The position numbers and the translations under genes were made by a program. Shown piece after piece: positions 26,813 to 64,000 of a DNA stretch of 64,000 nt (position 1 is the first letter of the stretch; each line of letters starts with the position of its first letter). The notes below the pieces were generated by a model, which saw only the letters and a program-made list of their open reading frames with translations, was not told the DNA's origin and searched no databases. Source of the DNA: Shinella daejeonensis (GTDB taxonomy: Bacteria; Pseudomonadota; Alphaproteobacteria; Rhizobiales; Rhizobiaceae); the NCBI RefSeq assembly GCF_024281235.1, contig NZ_JAHWXY010000010.1:62001-126000 (forward strand), given 5' to 3'.

Positions 26813-26835
26813 GCTCACCCAAAAGGTAGATTAAT

Positions 26836-29982: not shown

Positions 29983-30418
29983 TCAAGGATTTTTCCGATC
30001 ACCGAAGTGCAGCAAAGAAGCGTTCTCACGCATCTCCGGTCGTTTTCACGCTCAGACGATGCAGAAGATGCTGGATATCGCGCCGCAAATTCAGAAATCC
30101 CGCCGCTCGTGTCAATCTACGGGAAAGATAGAGGAAACAAGCATCTTATTCTCATTAAGACGCTCGACCAATGACAGCCACCGTTGCACCACGCTGCTCA
30201 GTCCCATGAGCGGCACCGGACAGCGAACATTTTGGCAGATCGGGAAGGGTAAGGCAGGAGAGGTGGTCACGACGCCAGGACGTTGATGGCGACCCGAGAC
30301 ATCCCCTTCGATGAAGCAGGTTTCTCTAGGACTTCGCTTGACGGCAAAGGCATGAGGTGCACCCGCCCAAGGGACAGATAGGCGGGCGACGTGCTTCTAT
30401 TCGTATAGGTAGATCAAG
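29983..30418. other. Intergenic stretch downstream of the integrase
   Basis: Nothing definite is seen in these 436 bases. Only very short frames occur, for example a 31-codon minus-strand frame near 30110-30210. An excisionase gene, often found here, was looked for and not recognised. Confidence 0.4.
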
Positions 30419-31411
30419 CTACCCGAGACGGGCAACGAGATCGTCAGCGGCTAGGTGCGTATAGCGCTTGAGCATCCTCAGCTCCTTATGACCGGAGATG
30501 CTGCTCACCTCGATCATATTCAGCCCACGCTCGAACAGACGGCTGACGCCTTCATGACGTAGATCGTGGAAGCGCAGCGCTTTGACATTCGAGCGAACCA
30601 GGAGACGGCGCCATGCTTGTTCGAGTGCACCCGGCTTCATGGGAAATACAATAGATCGATCTACGTCTGCATGCTCCTTCCATTCCGTCAGAGCATCGAA
30701 GGCACGCTGGGATAGAGGCACCTCACGCCCGGATCCGTTCTTCGTCATCGTCAACGTGATCACCCGGCGATTGTGAGAGACATCGGACCACTTGAGCCCC
30801 AGAATCTCCCCTCGGCGCATCCCGGTCTCGATAGCGAGGATTAGCAGCGTCCGGAGATAGGGAATCTTGCCACGATCGCAACCATCGAGAAGGCGCTGCT
30901 CCTCGTCGCCGGTCAGGCGTCGGCTACGCTCGTTCCGAATGACCGGACGGCGCACGAGCTTCACGACGTTCCTGGCAAGCGGCAAACCCCAATCGCGCAT
31001 GGCAACCTCGATGACGTGGCTGAGGATAGCAAGCTCACGAACGGCAGTAGATGGAGCTACCGACTGGAGCCGCTCATCACGGAACGACGCGATGTCCTGC
31101 TGGCTCAGTCCGATCAGCGTCCGGTAAGCAAGATCATGACGCCGGAGCACATCGATCCGCTGGATCTCCTGGGTGGCACCGCGTTTCGTTGGAGAAACCT
31201 CGTGCCGATAGCGCTCCAGTAGTTCGCCGAGCGTCGTGGTCTCCAAGATCCTTGTGTCCGGTGCGGCACCGAAGCGGTCGACCTGGGCTTCCAAGTCGCG
31301 CGCCCACTTCTCGGCATCCTGCTTCGTGTCGAAACTCTTGCAGCGGGGTTTCATGCCGCGCCGGCGCACCTGGGCTTGCCAGCGTCCTCTGAGCTTTCTG
31401 ATCGTCGCCAT
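30419..31411 (-). CDS. int: Tyrosine recombinase / phage-type integrase
   Basis: The 330-residue integrase has an N-terminal arm-binding region (IRKLRGRWQAQVRRRGMKPR), a SAM-like core-binding domain (about 60-145) and the catalytic domain with Arg in AIETGMRRGEILGLKW, the HxxR box in LRFHDLRHEG, the late His in SISGHKELRMLK, and Tyr in RYTHL. It catalyses site-specific integration and excision. Integrases are often next to their attachment site, so 31412-31601 or the far side of 30418 may hold it, but no repeat was recognised there. Confidence 0.94.
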   Translation of the reverse strand: MATIRKLRGRWQAQVRRRGMKPRCKSFDTKQDAEKWARDLEAQVDRFGAAPDTRILETTTLGELLERYRHEVSPTKRGATQEIQRIDVLRRHDLAYRTLIGLSQQDIASFRDERLQSVAPSTAVRELAILSHVIEVAMRDWGLPLARNVVKLVRRPVIRNERSRRLTGDEEQRLLDGCDRGKIPYLRTLLILAIETGMRRGEILGLKWSDVSHNRRVITLTMTKNGSGREVPLSQRAFDALTEWKEHADVDRSIVFPMKPGALEQAWRRLLVRSNVKALRFHDLRHEGVSRLFERGLNMIEVSSISGHKELRMLKRYTHLAADDLVARLG

Positions 31412-39100: not shown

Positions 39101-40195
39101 GAGACGGAGTGCGCCCTGCGTGTCTCCCCGCTTATGAAGATGCGCCGCGAACCAGGCATAAAGTCCTCGAAGCTCGCTGGGTGCCTGGCGATCCGCGCCG
39201 GTGATGAGCGCGATGGCACGACGCAGGGGGAAAGCGTGATTGTTTCCCGTCCCCGTCACGATCCTTGCCAGGAAACGAGCAGCGAGAAACTCCGCCACTG
39301 TGCGATGGCAGACCTCGAAGGCATGACCCTCGCCGCGAAACAACGCCGTGTCCAAGGCGGCAGCGACCTGTGCAGGCTCGATGTCGAGCCCGTTGGTGCT
39401 CAGATACTCATTGGCGCTACCCGAATGAGGCGGCATGGCATTGGAGCGCCAGACCGCCCTGGCACCGGAAACAAGGACGTAGAAGCATAGTCTGGAAGCC
39501 GTTTCGACAATGGCCTCGACGCTAGGTCTGGGATCGGTCACGCGTTCGGGATCGTACTCGTGGGCCAGTGCCCAGATGGCCTTTTCGAACAACTCGAAGC
39601 GCGTTCTAGGCCATGTTCCATCGGCCACCACGACCGAGTGAAGCAGCCGGAGACTCAGGGGGCTTTCGAGAAAGGCCGCTGCGCCGCGCGTCCGCGCCTC
39701 GATCACGAATGCTCGCGGATCAGCAGCGCCAAGCGCAGTGAGGACGGCCTGGGCCTCAGTTTCGTCCAAGGGCAGAAGGCGCGCGACGACGATGGAGCCA
39801 TTGTTGGCCGCCCGTCGCATGGCCCCAAGATCGGCGGCATCACGCCAGTCCTCAGCCCGACAGGTCAGTCGCCAGCGATGGCGTTTGCTCGCTGACAATG
39901 CGCTGGCAAGTTGCAGGAGCTTGTCTTTGCCGTTCTCGCCCGTCCGATATTCGTCTAAGGCATCGAGATATACTGTATCGGCGGCCGGCAGCGCCGCGCC
40001 ACTCATCGCTTCACGACAGGTGAAGACCTCGCCCCCTTCGGCCGCGGCCTCATAGCGCAACGCCGTCGACTTCCCGAGGCCGGGCTCTCCAAGCAGAACG
40101 ACGAACGGTTCATCGCGCAGCGAGCTCAGCAGGCGCTCGCTCGCTTCTGCCTCGCAGTGAACAAGGACGCGTCGGTCCAGGGATGCAATCTTCAT
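36128..40195 (-). CDS. Large STAND/NACHT-type NTPase with C-terminal PD-(D/E)XK nuclease domain
   Basis: This 1355-residue protein has an N-terminal P-loop NTPase with Walker A GEPGLGKST (about 36-44), Walker B VYLDALDEYR (75-84) and a sensor-like RLTCRAEDWR (109-118), the arrangement of NACHT/STAND ATPases. A long helical-repeat-like middle (about 250-1150) could be the sensor. Near residues 1220-1245 are RADVLLLSH, with the catalytic Asp (about D1229), and PIEAKRH, with ExK (about E1243, K1245), the PD-(D/E)XK nuclease core. A sensor-NTPase-nuclease protein resembles Avs-type antiviral STANDs, but here the effector is C-terminal. The ATG at 40195 was preferred over a TTG 6 bases earlier; neither has a clear ribosome site. 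Confidence 0.85.
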   Translation of the reverse strand: MKIASLDRRVLVHCEAEASERLLSSLRDEPFVVLLGEPGLGKSTALRYEAAAEGGEVFTCREAMSGAALPAADTVYLDALDEYRTGENGKDKLLQLASALSASKRHRWRLTCRAEDWRDAADLGAMRRAANNGSIVVARLLPLDETEAQAVLTALGAADPRAFVIEARTRGAAAFLESPLSLRLLHSVVVADGTWPRTRFELFEKAIWALAHEYDPERVTDPRPSVEAIVETASRLCFYVLVSGARAVWRSNAMPPHSGSANEYLSTNGLDIEPAQVAAALDTALFRGEGHAFEVCHRTVAEFLAARFLARIVTGTGNNHAFPLRRAIALITGADRQAPSELRGLYAWFAAHLHKRGDTQGALRLIDRDAATVLAYGDAAAFDTSGRKAILFNLDRDDPYFLSAQDDATVLGGLAGEDLAGDFATILDTDVRSHLQLTVLQALADGPPVQGIQSKLREIVLEAGRPLWMRERASEVTVRAGGDRTAIRRALISELERQPVDAGQVILRARLLAGMPADAIAASEIRKLLADFSALPAPSDDDEVKDRGALNALALALRRSAPEDLFDLPISHGSTGGLRQKSQVRFFIDQALVSTIERRPDVDAERLWTWINNAREHVWDMLDSGVVEVMQKWMDAEPQLRELDFFLAMAKSGEPTDGPWVVVNHYISTMRRLPSESLVEALIVLARDEAKGPRRKRLFQIAAYTARGEAHWSTWREKMVVILKEEGGHVGFIKSLLSDPNAKWKKQQAQRQAQQDAKTEVSRKDNIAALTPKLAAIASGVASEFGALKWAADHYRNARISKKEEPLAKVTTYTNEEIAAAIAEGFVQFAIHTDIKVDAESLGRAEATNGAYAQEYVVAAGIHQGLLHGREAELAAAPLVCALVGMRQSYFAGDDGPSLATWAVQRLAQDREQGVSQMLRYWNAALDAGDDDLDGLHHLVSAEEHGFIAAILHELLNHRPNLPMPALRQALVAAASVLAADDLAGFADDALKRTDLGDEQREIWSFVALALDPTAFSAKLSDEQVRGALLRPNGDLATALFELSPQPDVLDRIRIAVLGKAHEADDDDWLHSNTVSGIIRAAIRRLSASKSADAGEILRTLSSEVHPSWKPQLAHAAAEHARMKRDDLYAPPPVGDLVAALSGGAPASPADLTAVVLEEIDRYRSTLRTGSETPWKRFWNTDKDGAATTPQIENEDRDRLLELMRVRLERYGIVGSFPEARRGENTRADVLLLSHAGKNLPIEAKRHYNRELWTAPLSQLNGYASDVGADGYGIYLVFWFGTEFSIPARSDGREAPSSAEGLEAMLLDDIPTPLKGKLEVIVLDVSRPAEMTAALARRSQKRSKKQTGGKGARPD

Positions 40196-40262
40196 GAGCA
40201 AGAAATACTGTCGCTTCTGTCAGCGACAAAGAACAAAATGCGAGTCGTTGCCCGCTACACGC

Positions 40263-41710: not shown

Positions 41711-44700
41711 TTAGGCCCATCCTCCAAGCTCAGCAGCGACCTTGACGAAATAGCTCGGAATATGCGCGAGCACCGCGCGTACAATCTCCTCTTGCTGGCA
41801 AGCTGCGCGGACGCCGCCGCGGTCGACGACATTTCCCCAGACGAGACCGAGAATGCTCGCGACATGCCTATCTGCGAACCCGGCCTCGTGAAACGCAATC
41901 GCCGCGCGATCAGTCAGGCCGTATTTAATCTGCTTTTGCAGCAGGCTGACGCCCGTGTGCAGTGCGTCGTCTAGGTCCTCGGTCAGGTCCGCTATCGATG
42001 CAACGATCATCGCAACATCGTAGCCGAAGCCGCTCTCGCACAGCGCGACAGCATCTTCGACGGTGACATAGTCACGCCCGACCCGAACTCTTGCCTCAGC
42101 CAATATGTCGAAGATCACCGCATAGGATCTGCCCGCCACCCACTCATCAAGAGAGCGCGGAACTACATTCTGATCGCTAATCGCCTGGATCGCGCGGGAC
42201 GTGGTGAAACGGAGTGCCAACGGAGAGATTTCGGCGAACAGGCGGTTCTCTTGGACTGCGGTCTGCAGGGTTTCAAGGTTCTCAGTCAGCCAAGTTTTGA
42301 GTTCTGCAACCGCCGCAGGCGGTAGGGGCGACCGTCGAATAAGCGCGCGCTGGTCGCCATCGGTGTTGGCCGTGATCGAATCCCCGATTGACCGAAAGAC
42401 TTCGACGAGACGAACCCGCGTCTCCTCGTCAGCGAGGTGATAAGCCAATGTATTAGCCGCAAGTTCACCGATCCGCGCTGCGACGTCCTCTCCCTCGGCA
42501 AAGGTTATGTTGGCAACGAGGAAAGCGGCGATATTCTGGACAGCGCGGGCGCGACCTTCGATGAACCGGCGGAATTCCCGTTCGCTGATATTAGGTTGCG
42601 CCGCGAGCGCTGCGGCCACGACCTCATCTATCCGGGCGGCATCGGCGAAGGCGAGGTCAAGCCAATCGGGCGGAAGCTCTTGTACGATTGGTGGTTGGCG
42701 CTGCTGATACGCATCGAACAACGCCAGGATCGAGCTGCGAGAGGGTTCTGAGTTTCGGGCGTCAAGAAGTTCGGTTGCGCGGTCCCACGTCCATCGGCCG
42801 CGAAATTGCTGCCGCTGATCGTAGATGGACGGGGTCGAGAAGATGACACTGCCCTCGGTGTGCATCCCCGCGCGACCGGCACGACCCATCAGATTGTGGA
42901 AGTCGCGCACCAGGATCTGTTCGCCACCTTGGCGCGTCGATGTGATGATCAGATATTTGAGCGGAAAATTGACCCCTTGCGCCAAGGTCGAGGTGCAAAT
43001 GACAAATTTCGCCATACCTTCTTTCATGGCGTGTTCGATCGCGAGGCGGATACCCTGCGGTGTGTCGGCGTGATGGGCGAATATTCCAAGCGCTGCCGCG
43101 CGGGTCGCTGACACGCCGGCTCCGAGCTCGACTTCGCAGAGCGCTCGGATCTTCTCCACCTCGGCGGCATCCGAGGTATCAATCGGCCATTCCAAGGCGA
43201 CGCCGCGCTCGACGATTTCGACAGCGCGCGAGCAGATCTTCGTCACGCTGTCTTTTCGGCCGCAGAAGATCGCAACGCTACCGTTGCGCACGACGTGCAG
43301 GCCGAGGAACAGACCGACGTCACCGCCGGTTTTCTCCGGAAATCTGCGCTGGGCAGTTTCCTTGCCGCGGAGCGGCAGAGCGATGTCGCTGATAATGCGA
43401 GGCACGAAATATTCTCGCTCGGCCGGATCCTCCGGTTTCACATATTCGAGTCGCCCGCGTTGGTCCTGCCAGCTCGCAAATGCGATGCTTTTGGTCGTCG
43501 GTAGCAGACCCTCGGCGCCGACAACCGCATCGGCATCGCCGATCAGCCATGCAGCGACATCCGGCGCGTTGCCGATCACGGCAGAGATGAGAATGATCTG
43601 GGTTTCAGCGGGGAGCGACATGCGCAGCGAAGTGAGGAGGAGTTCGTAGGTCGGCCCCCTGGTCATTCCGTCGAATTGATGTCCTTCGTCATAGATCACC
43701 AATCCGATCCTCTTGGCGAGGTCCGGTGCCCGGCGCAGCATATAGAGGAGCTTTTCGGGCGTCACGATAAGCACCGAGTCTTCGGCGAACAGTGCATCGA
43801 GTGCGAGGTCGAATTGATAGGCGTCTGATGCTTCGTCCAGGCGCACATTCTCACCAGCAAAGGCCGTTACCAGGTCGCCCCGGATGTCGTGGCAGAGCGA
43901 TCGATAGGGTGCGACGATCACTGCAAGGTGCGCTCGATCGGATAGAAAGGCCGATCGAATGATGATTTCGGTGGCGCGAGTCTTGCCAGCGCTAGTCGGC
44001 ATCTGAATGACTACGGAACGTCCAGCGAACACGCCAGCATCCGCGATCCGTTGCTGAGCAGGCCAGAGTTCGATCGGAAAATGCGACTGCGCGAGCGCTA
44101 GGCGCCACGCATCCGGCGCCAAGCCTGATGCTGTTGGCAGGATCGTCCGGGCAGAATTTCTGAGCTTGAGCGCACACAAGGCGCCAGCAATGTCGGCGTA
44201 GAGCAATTCGCGCGGTGAGCCGGATCGGTGGAAATACTCGCGGATTCTGCGGCACGCTTCGGCAATGCCATCCGCCCCGGCCTCGAAGCTAAAATAGCCG
44301 GCTAGCGCCTGGAGTAGCTCAGTCGTCGCCGCTTGATGAGCATGGGCCGCCTCGGTCGGAACGAAGCTGTTCTTGAGAATGCTATAGACGAGATGACCAA
44401 GCCCGCCCGCGAGGTCGAGGTCCGGCTCCGTCATGTGCCGAATGATTACCGTCGCACTGCCGACATTCCCGGCGATGTAATATGCCGCTGCGCACAGGAG
44501 AGAAAATTCGGTGTCTAAGTCGCCATCGAGCTGCGCGTTCAAATACGCATCGAAGAAAACTGAGGAAAAGCGTAGCACGTCTTGCGGGTTTTCATCCAAC
44601 TCGTCCCAGCCGGGCGGTTGAGGAAGCGCGGCCGGTGCAACTCCTGCACCTTCGAGCGTATCTGCGACGGCGGCCGCAACATCTCCCAAGATGCCGATCG

Positions 44701-44830
44701 CCAATGAGAAGAGTAGCGACGGGTCGCGCGGCAACGCATTGAAGTCCGCTGGCGCGACGCGGAATTCGTGCATCTTGGCCCGTGCTCGCGCGGTGGATAG
44801 GATGGTTAGCGCGGTCGCCTCAGGCCTCAT
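41711..44830 (-). CDS. hamB: Hachiman-like HamB: Ski2-type SF2 helicase
   Basis: The 1039-residue product has helicase core motifs: MPTSAGKTR (Walker A), VIYDEGHQF (DExH), QIILISAVIGN (SAT-like), VICTSTLAQGVNFP (motif V-like) and NLMGRAGRAGMH (motif VI). It resembles Ski2/Hel308-like helicases and the HamB partner of the Hachiman anti-phage system, which translocates on DNA and licenses the HamA nuclease. The ATG at 44830 has GAGAGGG 6 bases upstream and overlaps the hamA stop by 11 bases; an ATG 15 bases earlier has no ribosome site. The assignment to Hachiman depends on the neighbouring HamA-like gene. Confidence 0.82.
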   Translation of the reverse strand: MRPEATALTILSTARARAKMHEFRVAPADFNALPRDPSLLFSLAIGILGDVAAAVADTLEGAGVAPAALPQPPGWDELDENPQDVLRFSSVFFDAYLNAQLDGDLDTEFSLLCAAAYYIAGNVGSATVIIRHMTEPDLDLAGGLGHLVYSILKNSFVPTEAAHAHQAATTELLQALAGYFSFEAGADGIAEACRRIREYFHRSGSPRELLYADIAGALCALKLRNSARTILPTASGLAPDAWRLALAQSHFPIELWPAQQRIADAGVFAGRSVVIQMPTSAGKTRATEIIIRSAFLSDRAHLAVIVAPYRSLCHDIRGDLVTAFAGENVRLDEASDAYQFDLALDALFAEDSVLIVTPEKLLYMLRRAPDLAKRIGLVIYDEGHQFDGMTRGPTYELLLTSLRMSLPAETQIILISAVIGNAPDVAAWLIGDADAVVGAEGLLPTTKSIAFASWQDQRGRLEYVKPEDPAEREYFVPRIISDIALPLRGKETAQRRFPEKTGGDVGLFLGLHVVRNGSVAIFCGRKDSVTKICSRAVEIVERGVALEWPIDTSDAAEVEKIRALCEVELGAGVSATRAAALGIFAHHADTPQGIRLAIEHAMKEGMAKFVICTSTLAQGVNFPLKYLIITSTRQGGEQILVRDFHNLMGRAGRAGMHTEGSVIFSTPSIYDQRQQFRGRWTWDRATELLDARNSEPSRSSILALFDAYQQRQPPIVQELPPDWLDLAFADAARIDEVVAAALAAQPNISEREFRRFIEGRARAVQNIAAFLVANITFAEGEDVAARIGELAANTLAYHLADEETRVRLVEVFRSIGDSITANTDGDQRALIRRSPLPPAAVAELKTWLTENLETLQTAVQENRLFAEISPLALRFTTSRAIQAISDQNVVPRSLDEWVAGRSYAVIFDILAEARVRVGRDYVTVEDAVALCESGFGYDVAMIVASIADLTEDLDDALHTGVSLLQKQIKYGLTDRAAIAFHEAGFADRHVASILGLVWGNVVDRGGVRAACQQEEIVRAVLAHIPSYFVKVAAELGGWA

Positions 44831-45686
44831 CGGCTGCCCTCTCATAAAGCGTATGCACGAGCTTCATCAGTGACGGTCCGCGGATAACCAGAAGGCGCAA
44901 ATTCTCTTGGTTAAAATGAGCCGCACCGTTGGTCGCCGCCATATCGGTCTCGGCGAAGACCGCCTCGTCAAGAATGGCGGCCGCTCCGTTGATCCGGCGA
45001 AAGGGTCGGTCGGCCTCGTTTTGAAAGCGCTCGACCTTCCGGGCATCGCCCACTTCGCCCCGATCGAAGAAGCGGCGCTTAATGGCATTGAGGCTCATGC
45101 CCTCGCGAAGTCTGTCCTTTACGCTGTCATCGATCGCATCCTGGAGCCGGTTCGCGCCGGACGCCGACATGCCAGATTTGGACTCGAAGATAAAAAGCTC
45201 GTCGGCCGGACCGGGGTTGTCCTCGTTCGCGAACTTGAATCCGATAACATCGCAACCCTTTGTCGAGTCATTTCGGTTCCAGCGATCCTGGTAGCGCAGC
45301 TCGCGCGGGCACCAATATCCTAGGAAATATTCGATGAAGTCGGCGACGACGATCTCGCCAAAGTCTCCTGATCGGAGACTCGGTCCAGGTGCTACCTTCG
45401 CATCGGGGAAGAGAATGCTCCTCAGATAATCGGGATGGCTGAGTCCCGTGCCACCAGCCATGAACGGCAAATCGGCATCGGCTATGTAGTGACTACGGAA
45501 ATGCCGAGCCCAGTCTGAAAGAATTTCAGCGTCATCTTGCGGATTTAGTTCCCATATCTCGATTTCACGGCCACACGCCGTTGCTTGACGCTCTCCAGTA
45601 TCGACCAGCCAGTTCAGATAGCTCGGTGTCGCCACGGTATGCCTCCCCCAAGGCCGATAAATAATATGGCGTCGATTCGAAGCCAT
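44820..45686 (-). CDS. hamA: Hachiman-like HamA: DUF1837-type nuclease effector
   Basis: This 288-residue protein has the layout of a PD-(D/E)XK nuclease of the HamA/DUF1837 kind: SGDFGEIVVADFIEYF (conserved GE helix), then TKGCDVIGFKF (catalytic Asp) and DELFIFESKSGMS (ExK). HamA degrades DNA when released by HamB. Its gene overlaps that of the helicase, on the same strand and in the usual HamA-HamB order. The 113 bases upstream, up to the Argonaute stop, are AT-rich and may contain its own promoter. Confidence 0.8.
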   Translation of the reverse strand: MASNRRHIIYRPWGRHTVATPSYLNWLVDTGERQATACGREIEIWELNPQDDAEILSDWARHFRSHYIADADLPFMAGGTGLSHPDYLRSILFPDAKVAPGPSLRSGDFGEIVVADFIEYFLGYWCPRELRYQDRWNRNDSTKGCDVIGFKFANEDNPGPADELFIFESKSGMSASGANRLQDAIDDSVKDRLREGMSLNAIKRRFFDRGEVGDARKVERFQNEADRPFRRINGAAAILDEAVFAETDMAATNGAAHFNQENLRLLVIRGPSLMKLVHTLYERAADEA

Positions 45687-45799
45687 CTTTGCAATGCAGA
45701 ATGCGCGCGTTTCTTACGAAGTATAATTTAATTCAGATTTCATAATTAGTTCTCAGCAATACCATCGCTTCGGTTCATTTATAATTTGTAGAAACCTCC

Positions 45800-47251
45800 T
45801 CACATGAACAACCGATAAGGATAAACATTCCGAGGTAGGTCCGGGACGTTCGCTATCGTGCGGGCCAGTTTCTGCGAATAGCGAATGCTAACTGGCACTG
45901 GGTCGTAGAGCGCGTCGTTATTCCAATCCATCTTCGTGAGGGCCAACACCTCATGGGCGGTGAGTTCAAGTGGCCCGCTGCCGGCATGACGGATCAGTTG
46001 TAGCGGCCGGGGAATGCTCTTCTTGCCCTGATAGTAATCGCCTTTGGTTGAGACCTCGGGAGCATTGCCCGCCACCCATACCAAGGCAGAATTGCCCGTG
46101 CGGATCACCATCGTCCCGCGCGGTACGGGAAACCCCGACGGTTTTGACGGCGGCTTCTCTACTCCCGACTTGATGAGCCAGACGCCGCGCCAGCACGACG
46201 CCGAGCTGACCTCGACGCACTCTATTTCCGCTACGCCGGTAAGCGCATCGAACGCGCCCTCGATTTCAGCTTCCTTGAACGCGGTCGTTTTGTGAATGAC
46301 CATGCGTTTTGGTAGGTTGCCGCCATTGCGTCCCTGATAGAGTTCCAAGCTACGGGCGAGAACCGCGCGCATGTCGTCGCGACTTAGAAAGGGGTTCCTA
46401 CGAGCTTCGGCCACGTCGGCTACCGGGTCTCGCGCCTCGAACGCGACGAACTGCATACCGCCGCCGTCCATGTCGAAGACCTGCGAGCAGCACGTTACAT
46501 AGTGCGCGTCTTGTTGGTCACCGCGCAGGGCATAAGCCAACCCGATGTAGGCGGTGTCCGTCGGCACGCCCTTCAGCGGCGCGAGCTTCCATGGTGTGCC
46601 CGCAGCCTTCACATACAGGGCGGTTGAAAGACGCCAAGCGAGCGAGGCCTTAAAGCTGAAGTTGAAGACGCGATCGTTCAGAACCTGGGTCGGAATATTA
46701 TACTTGGCGCCCAGAGCCTTCAGCACGTCGTGTGCGTCAAAGAATTTTCCGCGTGTCGCCGTGTCCCAGTTGTCGGGAAAGTGGACCAGCACAACGTCGA
46801 ACTCGTTGCGAACGGCGTCGAGGCGGCGGAGCGCGGCATCCATTGCGAGGTATAGGCGATGCTGCGCATTGCCGTCACCCGGTAACTGGTCGAGGTGTTC
46901 AGGCCACTTGATGTGCGCGCTCGCTGGCGCGGGATCGAGCGACACGCGGAACAGGCGCTCGAAACCGGGATATTCCGGCACATATTCTGATCTGTCGGAA
47001 GGCCTATGCACGCCGCGCAACAGCTTCATCAGATCGCCACGACGATGGAAAGCGCTCTCCGGGCCAACCGTCGCGATTCGAATGCGGGGAGTGTACCCGC
47101 TAAACGATCCTTTCGAATACGGCCCGAAGTTCAGGAGGCCGCGCAATGGATGGACATCGACCTGGGTGGCATCGGATGGGGAAAACGACAGGTCCGGCTC
47201 ATCCAAGAGCGTGAATGGCGGCAGCTCGGTGAGGGCTGGGTTCGCCATCAT
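45800..47251 (-). CDS. ago: Short prokaryotic Argonaute (MID-PIWI), SPARSA component
   Basis: This 483-residue protein has the size and features of short pAgos, which lack N and PAZ domains. MID-like segments (VLVHFPDNWD and IPTQVLNDRVFNFSFKASLA) are followed by PIWI-like strands (GVPTDTAYIGLAYALRG, MVIHKTTAFKEAEIEGAF, LTKMDWNNDALYDPVPVSIR) and the hydrophobic C-terminal end YPYRLFM. Short pAgos bind a guide and recognise target nucleic acid but are usually catalytically inactive, so killing is done by the partner. Its start overlaps the stop of the SIR2-APAZ gene by ATGA, as in known SPARSA operons. Confidence 0.92.
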   Translation of the reverse strand: MMANPALTELPPFTLLDEPDLSFSPSDATQVDVHPLRGLLNFGPYSKGSFSGYTPRIRIATVGPESAFHRRGDLMKLLRGVHRPSDRSEYVPEYPGFERLFRVSLDPAPASAHIKWPEHLDQLPGDGNAQHRLYLAMDAALRRLDAVRNEFDVVLVHFPDNWDTATRGKFFDAHDVLKALGAKYNIPTQVLNDRVFNFSFKASLAWRLSTALYVKAAGTPWKLAPLKGVPTDTAYIGLAYALRGDQQDAHYVTCCSQVFDMDGGGMQFVAFEARDPVADVAEARRNPFLSRDDMRAVLARSLELYQGRNGGNLPKRMVIHKTTAFKEAEIEGAFDALTGVAEIECVEVSSASCWRGVWLIKSGVEKPPSKPSGFPVPRGTMVIRTGNSALVWVAGNAPEVSTKGDYYQGKKSIPRPLQLIRHAGSGPLELTAHEVLALTKMDWNNDALYDPVPVSIRYSQKLARTIANVPDLPRNVYPYRLFM

Positions 47252-49131
47252 TTGCTCCTGTCGAAGTAGGTATGGTGATGCGACGGTCGGCTAAACCCTG
47301 TAACGGGTGACACCTTGAACACGGCATCAATGCCAGTGCCGTCTTCGAGTCCGAAAGCGCTTCGAAGCGTGCCGCCCGTCTCCGTCAGAAGCTGGGCCCA
47401 GGCCCCAATAATGTTGGCCCAATTCCTATTATAGCGCGGAGCCCATCGTTCCCGGCGCCAGTCACCGGCAGGATCACCTCGTCGCTCGGCTTGGATGCCC
47501 ATTTCAGCCGCAGCTTCTTGCGCGACCAGATCCTCCGAACCTTCCGTTTGTGGAGTGTCTTGTCGGGGCAACTGGACGAACGTGTAAGGCTCGAAGCCGC
47601 ACCACCACTTTCCATCGACCTGTTCCAGCTTGAGCTGGACACCCTCCTGAAACGGGAAGCCGAGCTTGGGCACTGTGCCAAACAGACTGGTGCCGTAGGC
47701 ATCGCGCAGCCGGGATAGGGTTTGTTGAAGACGCCGCGTTCGATCAGGATCATCGCCGTCGCGCGGTGTTGCAACGACGAGCGAATGGCCGGAACGCCTG
47801 TAGCGTGGGATGAGCGGGCGCTGCCGGGCGAGAGATCGCACGAGCGTGTCGTAGAGCAATCCCGTCGCCCAGCTATCAGCGACCGGATCTAGGTCGATCG
47901 TTCCAGCGAGCGATGGGCCAAGCGGAGCCAAGGCATCCAGGATTTCCTGGTCACGCCCGAACACCGCTAGCTCACGCCCCAAAGCGGCCGCCGTCGCCCG
48001 ACATCCCTTCGCCTTGAAGATCTCGCGCACCTCTGCCGATGTTGTCGGTTGGCTCAACCTGATGCGCCTGGCCGCGGTCGGCATCGATTGAAGCAGAATT
48101 GCCGAATAGCGCAGCACCGGGAATGCGCGGGCTTTGGCATTTGGAATCTGAACGGGTATGAGACGCGGCGTAGGTCGCCCTTCCATCACCCGATCAAGAA
48201 GCGGCTTGGGTAAATCGGTTACCTTGATGATATCGGCAGCCAGTTCGTCAAAGGTCGCGCACTCAACGACGGCCACATCCACGCCAGCCGCTGCGGCCCG
48301 ACCCAGAAATTCGATCACTGCGGGCAGCAAGCGCGACGCCGACGAGGCAAGCCAATAAAGTCCGTTGGGAAATGGCGACGGCGCGTCGAGAACCTCGTTC
48401 AGAGCCTCCATGATCGAAGCGTCACGTCCGCTATAGCCGACGAAGATCATTCCGAAGCGTTGGCCGGACTCCACCAACACATGCCGCATCCGGTTGTCCT
48501 GTTCCTCCAGTTCCGATCCCGCATTCTTAATTGCGATCGATTGGTAATCACCGTGGAGCTTAGCGACTAATGGCCAGTCCGATTCATTGAGGCACCGCAT
48601 GGCACGGTCGGCGGAATCGATCGCAGCCACAGTCGGGCGGTTCTGGTCGCCCACTTGCAGAATCCCATTTGCCGAATGCGCCGACTCCTCGATGAGCGGA
48701 TCGAAGTTCGTCGTGAAAACGCAATCGACCTTGCCGGCAGCCATCAGACTGCCAAGTACCTTGTGTCCAAAACAGGGAGTGCCCTTGGAGATCGCATCGT
48801 CGATATACTGTCGGCGATGCCGGGCCTCTGGATAGACCGCTTCGAAGGCCTTGGCATATTCTGTAGGATCACCGTCAGGTGGCAACAGCGAGTTTTGGCG
48901 GAAAAAGGCATCGATCCTGTCGATCCAGATCGGGTCAGCGGTATCGATCTCGCGCTTTGACAGGTTCGTTTCGCGGCAGAAGATTTGCGCCTTGAAATCG
49001 CGGATCATGGCATAGCCCGTCGGAATGCCGGAGGCGGCCGATGCGCCTGCGCCGAGGAACCAGGCCACAAGATTTGGCCTGAGATCGAACGCTGTCGTGA
49101 ATTGTGCGGCGGAGATAGTTTTTATCGGCAC
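47248..49131 (-). CDS. SIR2-APAZ NADase effector of the SPARSA system
   Basis: At 627 residues the protein has an N-terminal SIR2 domain (about 1-280: WFLGAGASAASGIPTG at 24-39, CVFTTNFDPLIEES, VAKLHGDYQS with the catalytic His, and VGYSGRDASIMEAL). A C-terminal APAZ-like region (about 300-627) docks the short Argonaute. On target recognition such complexes deplete NAD+ and stop growth of an invaded cell. I chose the GTG at 49131 because GGGGAG lies directly upstream and the SIR2 fold begins immediately. It starts 12 bases after the fic stop and overlaps ago, so fic, sir2-APAZ and ago form one transcription unit. Confidence 0.93.
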   Translation of the reverse strand: MPIKTISAAQFTTAFDLRPNLVAWFLGAGASAASGIPTGYAMIRDFKAQIFCRETNLSKREIDTADPIWIDRIDAFFRQNSLLPPDGDPTEYAKAFEAVYPEARHRRQYIDDAISKGTPCFGHKVLGSLMAAGKVDCVFTTNFDPLIEESAHSANGILQVGDQNRPTVAAIDSADRAMRCLNESDWPLVAKLHGDYQSIAIKNAGSELEEQDNRMRHVLVESGQRFGMIFVGYSGRDASIMEALNEVLDAPSPFPNGLYWLASSASRLLPAVIEFLGRAAAAGVDVAVVECATFDELAADIIKVTDLPKPLLDRVMEGRPTPRLIPVQIPNAKARAFPVLRYSAILLQSMPTAARRIRLSQPTTSAEVREIFKAKGCRATAAALGRELAVFGRDQEILDALAPLGPSLAGTIDLDPVADSWATGLLYDTLVRSLARQRPLIPRYRRSGHSLVVATPRDGDDPDRTRRLQQTLSRLRDAYGTSLFGTVPKLGFPFQEGVQLKLEQVDGKWWCGFEPYTFVQLPRQDTPQTEGSEDLVAQEAAAEMGIQAERRGDPAGDWRRERWAPRYNRNWANIIGAWAQLLTETGGTLRSAFGLEDGTGIDAVFKVSPVTGFSRPSHHHTYFDRSK

Positions 49132-49143
49132 AGGCTCCCCCTT

Positions 49144-50325
49144 TCAGGCCGTCGTGGGGAGCGGGTCGGTTCCCTCGCTCAAGATGGCGAGATATCGCCG
49201 GTAACTGAACACGCGCCCCCGTTTGCGCCCGGTGATTTCTTCGACGATGCCGAACCGTTCCAGATCGGCGAGCGCCGCATTGACCGTGGGGGCTGAGAGC
49301 CCTGTTTGCTGAACGAGTTGGTTGGCCGTCAGGAACGGGTTTTGCTGAAAAAGATCGTGGATACGCAGCGCGGAGCCTGCCCGGTCGCTCTCTGTCGTGA
49401 TCCGCTCGCGGTCTTCCTTGAACAGATCGACAATCCGGGTTGCTGCTTCGAATGCCTGATTGGCCGTATCCGCAACACCGGCAAGGAAGAAATCGAGCCA
49501 GGCTTCCCATGCCCCGTGCTCTCGCACCTCCTGAAGCAGGCGGTAATAGTCGGCGCGATGCGTTTTAAGGTAGAGGCTCAGATAGAGCAGCGGCTTGCGC
49601 AGCACACCGTTGACGCACAGGTACAGCGTCACCAACAAGCGACCGATCCTGCCGTTTCCATCCAGGAACGGGTGGATGGTCTCGAATTGGACGTGCAGCA
49701 ACCCTGCCTTGATCAGGGCGGGCAGACGCGAGCCGTCCTCGTGCATGAAGCGCTCAAGCGCATCGAGACAAGCATCCATCTCGGTCGGCGGTGGCGGCAC
49801 GAACAGTGCGTTGCCTGGACGTGAACCACCGATCCAGTTCTGAGACCGCCGAAACTCGCCGGGATTTTTCGTGCCGCCGCGCCCGCTTTGCAGCAGTCGC
49901 TCATGCATCTCGCGGATCAGACGTAATGACAGCGGAAGATCTTCCAGACGCTCCAGCCCATACATCATCGCATCGACATAGTTCGATACTTCACGAATGT
50001 CGTCGATCGGCTGGCCGGCCTGCGCCTCGGTTTCGAAGCGGAGCAGGTCCGAAAGGGTGGACTGCGTTCCTTCGATCTGGGACGAGAGGACTGCTTCCTT
50101 CCTTACATACATGTAGAGGAACAGCTCCTGACGCGGGAGCAACATCGTGATCCCGTCCAGACGACCTAACGCGCGTTCGGCCAGGCCTAGCCGCTCCAGA
50201 AGGGCCAGCACGTCGATCGGCGGTTCGGGCGGCAGTGAGGGCGGCACGAAGGCGCGCACGATTTCCCCCGCAACAGGGGTCTCGACAAAGCGGCCTAGCC
50301 GGAGGCTGAATGCTGATTCGGACAT
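49144..50325 (-). CDS. Fic-family AMP-transferase with winged-HTH C-terminus
   Basis: This 393-residue Fic protein has the full catalytic motif HPFLDGNGRIGR (218-229). An N-terminal inhibitory-helix motif SSQIEGTQS (81-89, S/TxxxE(G/N)) marks a class II self-inhibited Fic enzyme. The C-terminal about 70 residues (LFQQNPFLTANQLVQQTGLS, then NAALADLERFGIVEE) are a winged helix-turn-helix, so it may bind DNA. Fic enzymes add AMP to hydroxyl groups of proteins; the target is unknown. It is the first gene of the block with SIR2-APAZ and Argonaute, and a palindrome lies 24 bases upstream of its start. Confidence 0.93.
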   Translation of the reverse strand: MSESAFSLRLGRFVETPVAGEIVRAFVPPSLPPEPPIDVLALLERLGLAERALGRLDGITMLLPRQELFLYMYVRKEAVLSSQIEGTQSTLSDLLRFETEAQAGQPIDDIREVSNYVDAMMYGLERLEDLPLSLRLIREMHERLLQSGRGGTKNPGEFRRSQNWIGGSRPGNALFVPPPPTEMDACLDALERFMHEDGSRLPALIKAGLLHVQFETIHPFLDGNGRIGRLLVTLYLCVNGVLRKPLLYLSLYLKTHRADYYRLLQEVREHGAWEAWLDFFLAGVADTANQAFEAATRIVDLFKEDRERITTESDRAGSALRIHDLFQQNPFLTANQLVQQTGLSAPTVNAALADLERFGIVEEITGRKRGRVFSYRRYLAILSEGTDPLPTTA

Positions 50326-54400: not shown

Positions 54401-54829
54401 TCTCTGATAACATCGGGCTCACAGCAGAGTTCATCGAGGACGTTCTCTGTCATGCGGGCGCGAAAGGCCCGGCTGAATATTTCATGAGCTCGCCGACATT
54501 CGCGGACTTCGCCTGACGCCTTGATGAAGGGGGGCCTCGAGCCAGAAGCAGAAAATTCCTGTTCGCTTAGCCCGGCACGAAGAGGCTGGCCGGCGCAATG
54601 GGGTTCAGGAGAAGCCTACCCTTCAAGGCAGGCGGTGAACCATCCGATGGCGGCGCTCACTTCTACCCGCCGACATTTCCGATCCTGCAATCAGCACTTG
54701 CGGATCAGGCGGCTTATCCTGCCCGCAAAAACCAGATGAAATAGTACGAAATGCAAAAAGGAACGCACGATGACACGTTGGCACCTGGATCGGATATGGA
54801 ACAGCAGAACCCAGATAAGGAAGGAGTTC

Positions 54830-55702
54830 GTGTGGAGACCTCTGCTGTCGATGGTGTTTGCTATTTCCTGTATCACTCAATCGCAAATGGCGGCGGCGGC
54901 AGAAGATCCCATTATTTGGGCGGCGCGACAGGCTGAAATTCAACTCGACGCTCGTATTGGTCTTGCGATCCACGACACCGGAAGCGGCGCGAACTGGAAC
55001 TACAATGCTGATGAACGTTTTCCCATGGCCAGCACGTTCAAAGTTCTAGCCTGCGCAGCCTTTCTTGCGCGCAGTGATACTGGTGACCTAGATAAAAATC
55101 GGCGTGTGCCAATCGTCCAGACAGATCTTGTCACCTATTCTCCTGAGACCGAGGCATGGGTTGGCCAGGAGGTAACACTTGAAACGCTCTGCTCCGCCAC
55201 CATGCGAACGAGCGATAACACGGCTGCCAACAAAGTGCTTGAGGCGCTTGGCGGACCAGAGGCGGTCACCACGTTCCTGCGCTCCATTGGCGATGAAGTG
55301 ACGCGACTGGATCGCTGGGAAACCGATCTCAACGAAGCCACCCCCGGTGATCCACGCGATACCACCTCGCCGGCGGCCATGGCGAATTCTCTCCGGAATC
55401 TGGTCCTGGGCGAGGCGCTGTCGCCAATGTCACGCAAGACATTGACAGAATGGCTGGTGGACAATGAGGTCGGCGGGCCGCTACTGCGGGCGGGCATTCC
55501 TGACGACTGGCTGATAGGCGACCGTACAGGTGCGGGAGGTCATGGTTCGCGCGGCGTCGTTGCCGTTATCTGGCCGCCCGAGCATGCGCCCGTGGTCGCC
55601 GTGATCTATATCACGCAGACAGAGGCATCGATAGACCTGCGCAATGAGGCCATCGCGAGGATAGGCCGGGCGCTGGCCGAAACGGTCTCAGCCACGCCGT
55701 AA
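54830..55702 (+). CDS. bla: Class A beta-lactamase with RTG triad
   Basis: This 290-residue preprotein has an N-terminal hydrophobic signal (PLLSMVFAISCITQSQMAAA, cleavage near AAA). The mature enzyme has all class A motifs: STFK (Ser70 nucleophile), SDN (130), RWETDLNEA with Glu166 on the omega loop, and DRTGAGGHG in place of the common KTG. An arginine at the KTG position occurs in carbenicillinase (CARB/PSE) types. It hydrolyses penicillins in the periplasm; the spectrum cannot be predicted. The GTG at 54830 has AAGGAAGGAG just upstream and gives a standard signal; a longer frame from 54770 would put it 20 residues inside the protein. No regulator gene of the AmpR type is adjacent. Confidence 0.9.
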   Translation: MWRPLLSMVFAISCITQSQMAAAAEDPIIWAARQAEIQLDARIGLAIHDTGSGANWNYNADERFPMASTFKVLACAAFLARSDTGDLDKNRRVPIVQTDLVTYSPETEAWVGQEVTLETLCSATMRTSDNTAANKVLEALGGPEAVTTFLRSIGDEVTRLDRWETDLNEATPGDPRDTTSPAAMANSLRNLVLGEALSPMSRKTLTEWLVDNEVGGPLLRAGIPDDWLIGDRTGAGGHGSRGVVAVIWPPEHAPVVAVIYITQTEASIDLRNEAIARIGRALAETVSATP

Positions 55703-59913: not shown

Positions 59914-60609
59914 TTGCCGATTAAACTCTACAACTTCGCCTTTGGACCCTACCCGCAAAGGCTCAATATTTATCTGGCCGAGAAGACCCCGGCCAATGTC
60001 GAGTTCATCATATTCGATGAACCGGACAAGCAGGGCGGTGTGCCTCCAGCAGCGGTCAAAGAACTCACTCCGACCGGATCGCTGCCAATCCTTGAAGATG
60101 ATGACGGCACGGTCATCGGGCAATCGCTGGCGATCCTCGAATATCTAGAAGACAAGGCGTCAGGTCCTGACATGCTGGGAGCCACGCCGACGACACGGGC
60201 ACGCATCCGTCAGTTTGTTCATATGCTCGATGAAACGTTAACCTTCTTTGGGCTGTGGGCACGTCATGGGAGTTGCCTAGGGCATGGTATTGTGCGGACT
60301 AGCCAAGACGTCGCCGAAATTTGCGCTGCGCGGTATTTTGAACAGCTAAGGCTGATCGAAAGGATGATAGGCGAGGAAGAATTTATCGCCAACGATTGCG
60401 TAACTATCGCGGACTGCGTCGCCATGGCGACATTGCAATACGCAAGTGACTTCTACGACGTTCCGATCCCACGCGATTGTCCGAAACTTACGCGTTGGTA
60501 TGCCGGTTTTGCCAAGCGTCCAAGTGCGGCGTCGCCACGCTATCCGGAAGCCAAGCGTGCGAAGGCGCTGGGGCTGATGGCTCAAACTCGTGTTTCTGTT
60601 ACTATATAG
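59914..60609 (+). CDS. Glutathione S-transferase
   Basis: This 231-residue GST has a thioredoxin-fold N-terminal domain (LYNFAFGPYPQRLNIYLAEK, the cis-Pro turn in TPTGSLPIL, and GQSLAILEYLED) and a helical C-terminal domain. It conjugates glutathione to electrophiles, or acts as a reductase, in the cytoplasm. I chose the TTG at 59914 because AAGGAG lies about 9 bases upstream and the fold begins directly. It is the last gene of the Rrf2-controlled run. Confidence 0.9.
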   Translation: MPIKLYNFAFGPYPQRLNIYLAEKTPANVEFIIFDEPDKQGGVPPAAVKELTPTGSLPILEDDDGTVIGQSLAILEYLEDKASGPDMLGATPTTRARIRQFVHMLDETLTFFGLWARHGSCLGHGIVRTSQDVAEICAARYFEQLRLIERMIGEEEFIANDCVTIADCVAMATLQYASDFYDVPIPRDCPKLTRWYAGFAKRPSAASPRYPEAKRAKALGLMAQTRVSVTI

Positions 60610-60681
60610 CTGACAAGATTTCCCGATGCGCGGCCAAAAGTTGAAACGCGCAACTCCCAGCGAATTACCGCAACTACTCGG

Positions 60682-60798
60682 CTGACCATTCCTCTCGCGT
60701 CGCTGACCCAGACGCTCTCGGTCGCAAAACATCTGCAATTCCGCCACGCCAAGCTGCTCGACGTTGTGCAATCCAGCATCAGCGCGCGCGTGAAGCCT
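60682..60798 (+). pseudogene. N-terminal relic of a LysR gene, plus strand
   Basis: The plus strand reads LTQTLSVAKHLQFRHAKLLD then VVQSSISARVK, the LysR helix-turn-helix (usual form HLxFxRAAxxLxVxQSSxSxxIKxLE) with one residue missing and no start. After 60798 the frame runs into the fragment of a different, oppositely oriented LysR. It is a relic. Confidence 0.65.
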
Positions 60799-60802
60799 GC
60801 GT

Positions 60803-60836
60803 GCGCGAGAGGCCAGCGAGCGCGAGAGGCCAGCGA
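60803..60836. repeat. 17-bp tandem duplication inside the LysR relic junction
   Basis: Two exact copies of GCGCGAGAGGCCAGCGA lie head to tail at 60803-60819 and 60820-60836, at the boundary between the two LysR relics. A 17-bp duplication shifts any reading frame and is a clear inactivating event. Confidence 0.9.
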
Positions 60837-61045
60837 GCGTTCATCGACACCTGCCAGGAATATCGACATTGCCTCCAACCGGTCATGATTGTCCTCGCTT
60901 CTGAAACTAACTCTTTCAATTGGCGCATATTAATTCCGCTTTGAAATACGCTACGTTTCCAGAGAAGAGGAAAGGACTGCGGTCGGTCGGTGACGTGAAA
61001 GTTTGTTGCCGAGAGGGGGGACCCGGCAATTGGCGGTGCCCAGAC
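60837..61045 (-). pseudogene. Degenerate copy of the LysR start / hydrolase start region of 63.05-63.25 kb
   Basis: The minus strand opens with DRLEAMSIFLAGVDERSLA, matching the intact LysR at 62171-63091 (DRLEAMSIFLAVIDEGSLA). Further right the plus strand resembles the intact intergenic region and the start of the alpha/beta hydrolase: TTTCCAGAGAAGAGGAAAGG against TTTCCGGAAAAGATGAAAGG, and SVGDVKVCCREGGPG against SVGDVEVFYREAGPR. About 27 bases, including the hydrolase start codon, are missing, so both gene fragments are dead. Confidence 0.75.
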
Positions 61046-61131
61046 CAACCCGACCCTCCCCGGTCTATTGCCGATGCTCGGCTCCTCCACATTCGTCCTC
61101 GACCTTGATTTTTAAAAGGAAATAATCCCGT

Positions 61132-62064
61132 ATGAAAGCCATTCGGTTCCATCAATTCGGCGGCGCGGAAAATCTGCGCGAATTCGAGATAGATGTTCCC
61201 GTTCCGCTGGCCGGCCAAGTCCTTATCCGTCTGGCAGGAACGAGTATCAATCCCGTCGATTTCAAGGTCAGGGAAGGTGCAGTTCCTTATGTGAACCAGA
61301 CCATGCTTCCCTATACTGGCGGCCGGGATATTGCCGGCTGGGTGGAGGCGATCGGAGAGGATGTCACGGGCCTCACCATTGGCGAAGCGGTGATCGGACT
61401 GCCTGGTTTCGACCATGGCACGTTCGCCCAATATTGCCTTGTCGGGGAGAAGGCGCTCACCCCCGCGCCGAAAACCATTCCACTGCCGCACGCCGGAGCC
61501 ATCCCATTGGCCGCTCTCACGGCCTGGCAGGGCCTAACCCAACATGGTGAATTGCGCATGGGAGAGGCCATTCTCGTCCACGGGGGCGCCGGAGGAACCG
61601 GCCATTTCGCCGTCCAGTTCGCCAAGGCTCTGGGCGCGACGGTGACGGCGACCGCCTCAGCACGCGATCGGGAATTCCTGCTCGAACTTGGAGCAGACAG
61701 CGTGCTCGATTATCGTAACGACCGCTTCGAGGATATTGGGGAACATTTCGATCTCGTGCTCGATCTCGTTGGCGGTGAGGTGACAACCCGCTCCTGGGCT
61801 GTGCTGAAACCCGGCGGCCGTCTGATTTCGGCGATCAAAATCTCGGACCAGATCGAGTCGGACGAGACCAGACGCCTCAGCGCAAGCTTCATGACGGCGC
61901 CGGATCGCGATCATCTCGCCCAAATCGTTGATATGATCGATGGTGAAAAAGTCAGGGTCGTCATCTCTGAAGTCTTTGCACTCAAGGACGTGGCGGCCGC
62001 ACAGGACAGGCTTCAGAGAGGTGGCGTTCGCGGAAAAGTCCTCATCGAAATCGCGAGTGCGTAA
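61132..62064 (+). CDS. NADPH-dependent quinone oxidoreductase-like protein (MDR superfamily)
   Basis: This 310-residue medium-chain reductase lacks the zinc-binding cysteines. It has an N-terminal GroES-like fold and the NADPH-binding LVHGGAGGTGHFAVQFAKAL motif followed by a Rossmann domain. Such enzymes reduce quinones, enones or similar electrophiles. An AAAGGAAAT ribosome site lies upstream. Just before it are the LysR/hydrolase relics. It is convergent with the intact LysR gene, and its regulator is unclear. Confidence 0.9.
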   Translation: MKAIRFHQFGGAENLREFEIDVPVPLAGQVLIRLAGTSINPVDFKVREGAVPYVNQTMLPYTGGRDIAGWVEAIGEDVTGLTIGEAVIGLPGFDHGTFAQYCLVGEKALTPAPKTIPLPHAGAIPLAALTAWQGLTQHGELRMGEAILVHGGAGGTGHFAVQFAKALGATVTATASARDREFLLELGADSVLDYRNDRFEDIGEHFDLVLDLVGGEVTTRSWAVLKPGGRLISAIKISDQIESDETRRLSASFMTAPDRDHLAQIVDMIDGEKVRVVISEVFALKDVAAAQDRLQRGGVRGKVLIEIASA

Positions 62065-62170
62065 GGCCTCTGGAACGTGTAACCAGAGCGGGGTTAGGCT
62101 GGCCCTACCTATATCTCGTGCCCAAGATCATAGTCTTTAAATCATAGACGCTGGCACTCGTGGACAGAGG

Positions 62171-63091
62171 TTAGGAAGCATTGTGTCGCGGTTCCTTGAA
62201 CAATTGCCGCAACCGGGGAACTGCGTGGTCGATGAACGCACGAACCGCGCCGCTATTGCCCCCGCGTTGCGGCCGAAAGACCAAGCTTACAGGAACCGGC
62301 TCCGGTTCGTACGCTTCGAGGAGCGGAACCAGACAGCCCTGCGCAATCTGCTTCTCTACTTGGTAAGACAGAGGGCGAACGATCCCCAGCCCTCGCACAG
62401 CAGCGTCGATCGCTGCACCGGCGCTGTTGGTTGCAAGCCGGCAGGTAACCCGCACCGATCTGACACGGCGTCCGGGTGGACGCTCGCGGTAACGCCAGAG
62501 TTCCTGAGCTCCGGCCTCATTCAGCCCGATACACCAGTGGTTGATGAGGTCCTGGGGCTGTTCCGGTAGTGCGCGCTCGACCAGATAGCCCGGGGCGGCA
62601 CAGGTCAACTGGCGCACTTCGCCGATCTTGATTGCTGTCAAGGACGAATCCGGCAGCGTAGCCAGGCGAACCGCAACATCCACTCCCTCCCCGATAAGAT
62701 CGACCATACGGTTGAGGAAAAGGGAGCGGACGTCCGTTTGCGGATAGGCCGCCAGGAAGCTCTCGACAACAGGCATCACATTGAGACGCCCGAAAAGCTC
62801 GGGCGCCGTGACGACGACGCTGCCACTGACGACGGCGTCCTGCGAGCGCGCCTCAAGCTGCGCAAATTCGGCCAGTATCACCCTATAGGTGGCCGCGTGA
62901 CGCGCACCGGCCTCAGTGATGACGAAACGTCTCGTCGTGCGCTCGAGCAGGCGCTCATCCGCAATCGCTTCCAGACGCGCAACAGCTCGCGTCACAGAAG
63001 CGGGGGAGCAGCCGAGCCGGCGCGCAGCGCCGGCCAGGGAGCCTTCGTCGATGACTGCCAGGAATATCGACATTGCCTCCAGCCTATCCAT
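62171..63091 (-). CDS. LysR-family regulator, divergent from alpha/beta hydrolase
   Basis: The 306-residue regulator starts with MDRLEAMSIFLAVIDEGSLA and has an HTH (ARRLGCSPASVTRAVARLEA) followed by the effector domain (GSVVVTAPELFGRLNVMPVV). The ATG at 63091 has GGAGG 5 bases upstream, which decides it over an upstream GTG at 63097. It is divergent from the alpha/beta hydrolase gene (98 bases between starts) and probably regulates it. Confidence 0.92.
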   Translation of the reverse strand: MDRLEAMSIFLAVIDEGSLAGAARRLGCSPASVTRAVARLEAIADERLLERTTRRFVITEAGARHAATYRVILAEFAQLEARSQDAVVSGSVVVTAPELFGRLNVMPVVESFLAAYPQTDVRSLFLNRMVDLIGEGVDVAVRLATLPDSSLTAIKIGEVRQLTCAAPGYLVERALPEQPQDLINHWCIGLNEAGAQELWRYRERPPGRRVRSVRVTCRLATNSAGAAIDAAVRGLGIVRPLSYQVEKQIAQGCLVPLLEAYEPEPVPVSLVFRPQRGGNSGAVRAFIDHAVPRLRQLFKEPRHNAS

Positions 63092-63188
63092 GATCACCTC
63101 CGATACTGAAATTATAACTTGCGATTAATGTCTATTATATCATCAATTGAAATGCACTACTTTCCGGAAAAGATGAAAGGGCTGCATA

Positions 63189-64000
63189 ATGACAACGAGA
63201 TACGGATTTCAGTCGGTCGGGGACGTGGAGGTTTTTTACCGAGAGGCGGGGCCACGCGATGCGCCGGTTCTTCTCCTGCTGCATGGCTTTCCAACCGCAA
63301 GTCACATGTTCCGTGACCTGATCCCGCTGCTTTCAGATCGCTTTCGGCTCATTGCACCGGATCTCCCAGGTTTCGGACAAACTAAAGCGCCGCCGCGCGG
63401 AACCTTCGACTACACATTCGACAATCTTGCTGAGGTGATTGAGGGCTTCACTGCAGCCATGTCACTCGAGCAGTACGCTCTTTACGTCTTCGACTATGGA
63501 GCTCCGGTTGGACTGCGTTTGGCGATGCGTCATCCCGGAAAGGTTTCCGCTATCATATCCCAGAACGGCAACGCCTATGTTGACGGCTTCAGCGATGAGT
63601 GGGGACCGTGGGAAGCTTATTGGCGGAAGCCCAGCGCGGCCAACCGAGAGGCCTGCAGAGCCTCGCTTGCGCCGGACACGATCCGGAACTGGCAGTATGG
63701 CACCGGAGCCGATCCGAGCCTGTTGTCGCCCGACGGTTACGAACTGGACATCGCCTACATGGCCCGTCCTGGCGCCGAGGAGATACAACTGGACCTGATC
63801 CTGGACTATCGCAGCAACGTCGCGCTCTATCCGGACTTCCAGGCGTATTTCCGCAAACACCGTCCGCCGCTACTGGCTGTGTGGGGACGTCATGACCCCG
63901 CATTTGTGCCTGCAGGTGCGGTTGCCTATCAACGTGATCTGCCGAATGCGCAGATTCATTTGCTGGATACAGGACATTTTGCATTGGAAACGCATGCGAA
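63189..64000 (+). CDS. Alpha/beta hydrolase, haloalkane dehalogenase/epoxide hydrolase-like (3' truncated by window)
   Basis: The frame is open from an ATG at 63189 to the window end, giving about 270 residues. It has an oxyanion-hole LLHGFPTASHMF, LIAPDLPGFGQT, the nucleophile elbow LYVFDYGAPVGLRLAM with Asp as nucleophile (typical of haloalkane dehalogenases and epoxide hydrolases), the acid region VWGRHDPAFVP and the catalytic histidine in LDTGHFALETHA. The substrate is not known. The divergent LysR is the candidate regulator, and a degenerate second copy of its beginning lies at 60.8-61.05 kb. Confidence 0.88.
   Translation, partial: MTTRYGFQSVGDVEVFYREAGPRDAPVLLLLHGFPTASHMFRDLIPLLSDRFRLIAPDLPGFGQTKAPPRGTFDYTFDNLAEVIEGFTAAMSLEQYALYVFDYGAPVGLRLAMRHPGKVSAIISQNGNAYVDGFSDEWGPWEAYWRKPSAANREACRASLAPDTIRNWQYGTGADPSLLSPDGYELDIAYMARPGAEEIQLDLILDYRSNVALYPDFQAYFRKHRPPLLAVWGRHDPAFVPAGAVAYQRDLPNAQIHLLDTGHFALETHA

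Follow-up and report, generated by a model that had tools for sequence, protein, structure and literature searches.

We read the interval 60610-61131 of the window (the whole 64,000-nucleotide stretch of Shinella daejeonensis DNA analyzed here) as debris inside a genomic island, holding a truncated LysR gene of a kind that neighbors traG-type genes and a dead sister of the intact LysR/hydrolase unit nearby; we give this reading a probability of roughly 0.85. The interval looks like ordinary pseudogene debris, and there is no need for a present function of the relic to explain it. Pseudogene fragments in the horizontally acquired islands of prokaryotes are truncated, frameshifted, or devoid of a start codon, and the relics in the window are like them, their particular combination being the sole difference. 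The site would record how island cargo is assembled and trimmed, with a LysR from a transfer-gene neighborhood and pieces of a second regulator/hydrolase pair left behind an acquired module.

Gene Order Around the Interval

The interval lies behind the right end of an Rrf2/methyltransferase/GST module, formed by a plus-strand glutathione S-transferase (GST) gene (59914-60609; Pfam GST_N, GST_C), and ahead of a plus-strand quinone oxidoreductase-like gene of the zinc-binding dehydrogenase family (61132-62064; an open frame with ADH_N, ADH_zinc_N, and ADH_zinc_N_2). Beyond the oxidoreductase follow an intact LysR regulator on the minus strand (62171-63097; HTH_1, LysR_substrate) and an alpha/beta hydrolase on the plus strand (63189-64000; Abhydrolase_1), which extends past the window end and has its full frame at 12190-13053 of locus L089; the Pfam scans covered part of the open reading frames. 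Between the GST end (60609) and the oxidoreductase start (61132) we find only short, overlapping, spurious-looking frames. From left to right this sequence holds a plus-strand LysR fragment, a tandem repeat, some 20 codons from a minus-strand LysR gene, an intergenic region, and a hydrolase start of roughly 50 bases.

The Remains of a Second LysR/Hydrolase Unit

The window sequence 60828-61030 matches the start region of the intact LysR(-)/hydrolase(+) pair at 63032-63260, across both gene starts and the intergenic region between them. Identity amounts to 152 of 202 columns (75%) in a three-sequence alignment and to 144 of 202 (71%) in a four-sequence alignment. Counted in the former, with the relic cut at 60828-60883, 60884-60980, and 60981-61030, it is 47/56 in the LysR codons, 66/96 in the intergenic part, and 39/50 in the hydrolase start; the corresponding features are the relic of the minus-strand LysR N-terminal codons (60828-60886), whose nearest relative is the intact LysR gene, the relic of the intergenic, regulatory region (60887-60980), and the plus-strand hydrolase-start relic (60981-61030). 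BLAST returns the match in two pieces, with E values of 1.5e-18 (60828-60980) and 1.3e-6 (60982-61023).

The chance that this similarity is accidental, or reflects a few shared motifs, is practically nil: the alignment of 60776-61030 with the intact start region reaches a local score of 83.5, and neither the 500 pairs resampled from first-order Markov chains nor any of 118 further tiles from the window exceeds 18.0, which refutes that explanation. Since the score lies far above both controls, the similarity that a first-pass annotation had claimed, from the minus-strand LysR start through the intergenic region to the hydrolase start 2.2 kb from the intact unit, stands by the alignment test set beforehand and is significant far beyond the motifs. 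The match supports our interpretation of 60828-61030 as the probable remains of a second divergent LysR/hydrolase unit.

The coding capacity of the relic is lost through a one-base frameshift, a missing hydrolase start, and truncation at both ends. One base is missing behind the LysR start codon (ATG, 60884-60886), which cuts the frame off from its start; that frame reads HDRLEAMSIFLAGVDERSLA, and its counterpart in the intact LysR reads MDRLEAMSIFLAVIDEGSLA. In the hydrolase part the start codon is gone in a gap of 25 bases (63185-63209 absent) by pairwise alignment, and the length and place of this gap shift by a few bases in multiple alignments, making the earlier figure of about 27 a fair one.

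At its left side the relic runs into an exact 17-bp tandem duplication (60806-60839, copies at 60806-60822 and 60823-60839) of the sequence CGAGAGGCCAGCGAGCG. The edge of the minus-strand LysR stretch falls inside the repeat, which suggests that this stretch was there before the duplication. The plus- and minus-strand LysR fragments meet head-on near 60793-60797. A continuation of the minus-strand relic toward 60796 as ARRL may exist and is only suggestive: 9 of 15 bases agree, a value equaled or exceeded by 285 of 20,000 random stretches. The mosaic of two LysR relics with a 17-bp duplication, as it had been described before, is confirmed in that both homologies hold and the repeat is exact.

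A LysR Fragment From a traG-Adjacent Family

The plus-strand fragment (about 60677-60795, core 60688-60795), recognized by DNA identity and by translation, comprises the helix-turn-helix part at the 5' end of a LysR gene, and the 3' part is missing. Of the 21 loci outside the window that it matches, 19 align over 89-130 columns with 72-80% identity, and two align over no more than 39 and 25 columns. Three bases present in the other rows of the alignment are absent from the fragment, whose translation is LTIPLASLTQTLSVAKHLQFRHAKLLDVVQSSISARVK. Two of the matches come from the window's own genome, as intact genes on the separate contigs C14 and C12.

We mapped the neighborhoods of six of these 21 loci, namely L092-L095 and the own contigs C14 and C12 (L090 and L091). 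In all five stretches where the far side is visible (L092-L095 and L091), the intact relative adjoins a 660-aa gene, which encodes a TraG-type coupling protein in the three that were scanned (L091, L092, and L093; Pfam T4SS-DNA_transf, TraG-D_C) and resembles these by its first 60 residues in the other two. A small gene lies behind it, joined in L091, L092, L094, and L095 by a TrbB-type secretion ATPase; the TrbB-type call rests on Pfam T2SSE in both scanned cases (L091, L092). Contig C14 stops just past its LysR gene, so that the neighbor falls outside the contig. On two plasmids, a relative of the fragment adjoins floR or tet(G).

Judged by its sequence, the fragment is the 5' end of a different, traG-adjacent LysR family, the one whose members neighbor traG-type genes in conjugative elements. 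Unlike these members, it retains only about 120 bases, and no traG-type transfer gene stands next to it: within the window, the relic and then the oxidoreductase follow. The head-on fragment reported earlier is real, and because its family is another one, traG-adjacent in the mapped stretches, it has to be set apart from the LysR/hydrolase unit.

On the own contigs C14 and C12, relaxase-type genes (Pfam DUF3363, Relaxase) accompany the intact relatives of the fragment, and C12 additionally has the TraG-type and TrbB-type genes. The genome is likely to carry at least one further conjugative element.

Descent and Decay of the Relic

Adjacent LysR and hydrolase genes with a homologous stretch between them also occur on the Pannonibacter phragmitetus plasmids NZ_CP032313.1 and NZ_CP013069.1, where they share 71.6% and 71.4% DNA identity with the intact window unit over 1.7 kb; the divergent order was seen for NZ_CP032313.1. 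The Pannonibacter pair is intact, unlike the relic, which is identical to it in 129 of 203 columns (64%). Over 202 columns of a three-sequence comparison, the relic and the intact unit agree against Pannonibacter at 39 sites, the relic and Pannonibacter against the intact unit at 16, and the intact unit and Pannonibacter against the relic at 21. When the unit of genome G487 is added, 12 sites group the relic with the intact unit, against 4 and 2 for the alternatives, and a maximum likelihood tree (HKY+G, 200 bootstraps) gives this grouping a bootstrap support of 100, in an unrooted tree of four sequences with 18 informative sites and a short relic. Left out of these counts are L023 and L024, the units of Sphingomonas and Beijerinckiaceae, whose intergenic parts aligned poorly, and the Roseomonas unit (L105). 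Among the compared sequences, the analysis supports the intact unit 2.2 kb away as the probable nearest relative of the relic.

The branches leading to the relic and to the intact unit measure 0.25 and 0.17, placing the two about 0.42 apart, as compared with about 0.56 between the intact unit and Pannonibacter. With branches of this length, much of the divergence may date from a time when both units worked. We then scored sites that are invariant in three other units and changed in the relic, finding 2/37 in the LysR part, which shows little decay, 10/40 in the intergenic part, and 8/35 in the hydrolase part, where 15 more are missing. The same test of the intact copy against the relic and the two outside units gave 3/38, 6/36, and 1/28. 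All parts together, the relic is changed at 20 of 112 sites and the intact copy at 10 of 102, a difference short of significance (Fisher P = 0.11). For the hydrolase part alone (8/35 vs. 1/28), Fisher P is 0.04 as one of several tests, and an excess of changes there is expected if the relic is a dead copy.

Origin of the Second Unit

We propose that the second LysR/hydrolase unit came about either as a duplicate or as an acquired sister unit, that it would have diverged partly while still working, and that it may then have lost most of its sequence through deletion. A tandem duplication in place, after which the first hydrolase was replaced by the oxidoreductase, would account for the two units having the same orientation 2.2 kb apart, for the relic being the sister of the local copy (on the site counts above, from four sequences only), and for the single hydrolase match at E <= 1e-20 in the whole genome. 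A divergence of 25-29% is, however, large for a local duplicate, the tree distance being 0.42 vs. 0.56 to Pannonibacter, and no trace of the hydrolase is left on either side of the oxidoreductase. The 101 bases at 61031-61131 contain neither hydrolase nor following sequence (score 9.0 vs. a median of 10.5 over 300 shuffles), nor do the 106 bases at 62065-62170 (10.0 vs. 10.0, 300 shuffles), so a hidden remainder of the hydrolase beside the oxidoreductase, with scores at or below the shuffle medians, is rejected. The older state, moreover, occurs in no genome found by searches of limited depth, and overall we regard duplication in place as somewhat improbable. The acquisition of a sister unit accounts for the large divergence at least as well, and that two sister units came in separately, for example on two mobile elements, one of them then being lost, has about an even chance of being correct. 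The unit does travel, being found on Pannonibacter plasmids. In G487, which belongs to another family, the LysR/hydrolase pair is accompanied on its contig by RidA and NADP-binding genes, whose proteins are 77% and 74% identical to those of window genes at 53836 and 52212. In addition, the hydrolase DNA is 78-79% identical to sequences on three plasmids of the cyanobacteria Gloeocapsopsis, Oscillatoria, and Trichormus; the Pannonibacter (75%) and G487 (77%) genes fall below these matches, which suggests wide transfer of the hydrolase. Against separate acquisition stand the proximity and shared orientation of the two copies, and the fact that no other carrier of the relic lineage was found. The first-pass annotation had seen a duplication of the whole divergent unit followed by its replacement by the oxidoreductase; the tree supports a second copy, which may have arisen in place or have been acquired as a sister unit, and the replacement finds no backing in the sequence around the oxidoreductase or in any older arrangement.

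Our searches of related genomes, limited in depth and with few neighborhoods read, brought up no intact pair in the older place. Among the best two candidates or fewer per genome in 296 other genomes there was no relic-like match, which is weak evidence, as the intact copy of the own genome was also missed. With up to 15 candidates per genome in 41 genomes, matches outside the own genome were to the plus-strand fragment only, and with up to 32 per genome in 21 genomes they were short (35-43 bases). A further search for the older arrangement scored the best seven candidates or fewer per genome; a search of 151 genomes gave a match in 30, the own genome included, and among the others the neighborhood was read in genome G106; and a pattern scan, sensitive only to close relatives, returned 48 loci.

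The Rrf2, methyltransferase, and GST genes occur in the same order on single plasmids of Agrobacterium and Allorhizobium and in G106, the DNA match of the latter ending at window position 60580; in the window, MFS and FAD oxidoreductase genes stand between Rrf2 and the methyltransferase. G106 and the two Rhizobiaceae plasmids have different genes following the GST gene, and do not provide an older arrangement. No close relative of the quinone oxidoreductase came up in the searches made: the best match reaches 46% identity among 385 genomes from the class and 45% among plasmids, and identities within the own genus are 35-42%; one of these searches scored the best five candidates or fewer per genome.

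An Inverted Repeat in the Intergenic Relic

The intergenic relic contains an exact inverted repeat, TGAAA-N7-TTTCA (60902-60918, plus strand), a possible LysR operator that occurs once in the whole window, where 0.03 exact occurrences are expected. The G487 unit has it without mismatch and the Pannonibacter unit with one; its counterpart in the intact window unit (63107-63123, plus strand) reads TGAAA-N7-TTGCG, with the right half changed. The repeat was picked after the alignment had been seen, and it therefore serves as a lead only.

We consider it very unlikely that the regulatory region of the relic has been kept to control the oxidoreductase, with the intact LysR as a possible mediator. 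The exact repeat, single in the window and exact in G487, and its end lying 213 bases upstream of the oxidoreductase start fit such retention, but the repeat was chosen post hoc, the intact unit itself lacks the right half, and the single promoter-like match shortly before the oxidoreductase (61099-61126) reaches only 9/12. Nor is the intergenic part of the relic better kept than its dead coding parts (invariant sites kept 30/40 vs. 62/72; Fisher P = 0.20), giving no sign of selection on it. Even less probable is a regulatory fossil in which the relic operator would still bind the intact LysR and so bring the newcomer oxidoreductase under that regulator; an operator in use would, if true, have a meaning beyond this genome, and otherwise little.

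Promoter-like sites number 2, against a shuffle average of 1.0, and terminator-like sites also 2, against an expected 2.2. Rfam returned no RNA element at gathering score in 60500-63300.

The Island Setting

A tRNA-Ser gene (cga, 24059-24148) is preceded by sequence with a GC content of 0.60-0.67 and followed by sequence of 0.51-0.62, and a phage-type integrase gene lies at 30419-31411. The tRNA, the GC drop, and the integrase (24059-31411) mark the left portion of a genomic island, which apparently continues past the window end. Parts of this island are found separately elsewhere, and the relics appear to sit immediately past the edge of a module that has neighbors of other origin.

A 1357-aa protein (36128-40201) has no PADLOC match and a sub-threshold nSTAND3 match only. 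By PADLOC, a defense cluster (41711-50325) comprises Hachiman HamB (41711-44845) and HamA (44820-45686), a prokaryotic Argonaute (45800-47251) with its SIR2-type partner (47248-49131), and SoFic (49144-50325). Also within the island, a gene of the serine beta-lactamase family (54770-55702; Pfam Beta-lactamase2) stands near RidA, SDR, and TetR genes. Past the window end, at 15462-17538 of L089, lie genes for a DNA methylase (N6_N4_Mtase) and for a protein carrying a RovC DNA-binding domain; genes of these kinds are common in conjugative elements.
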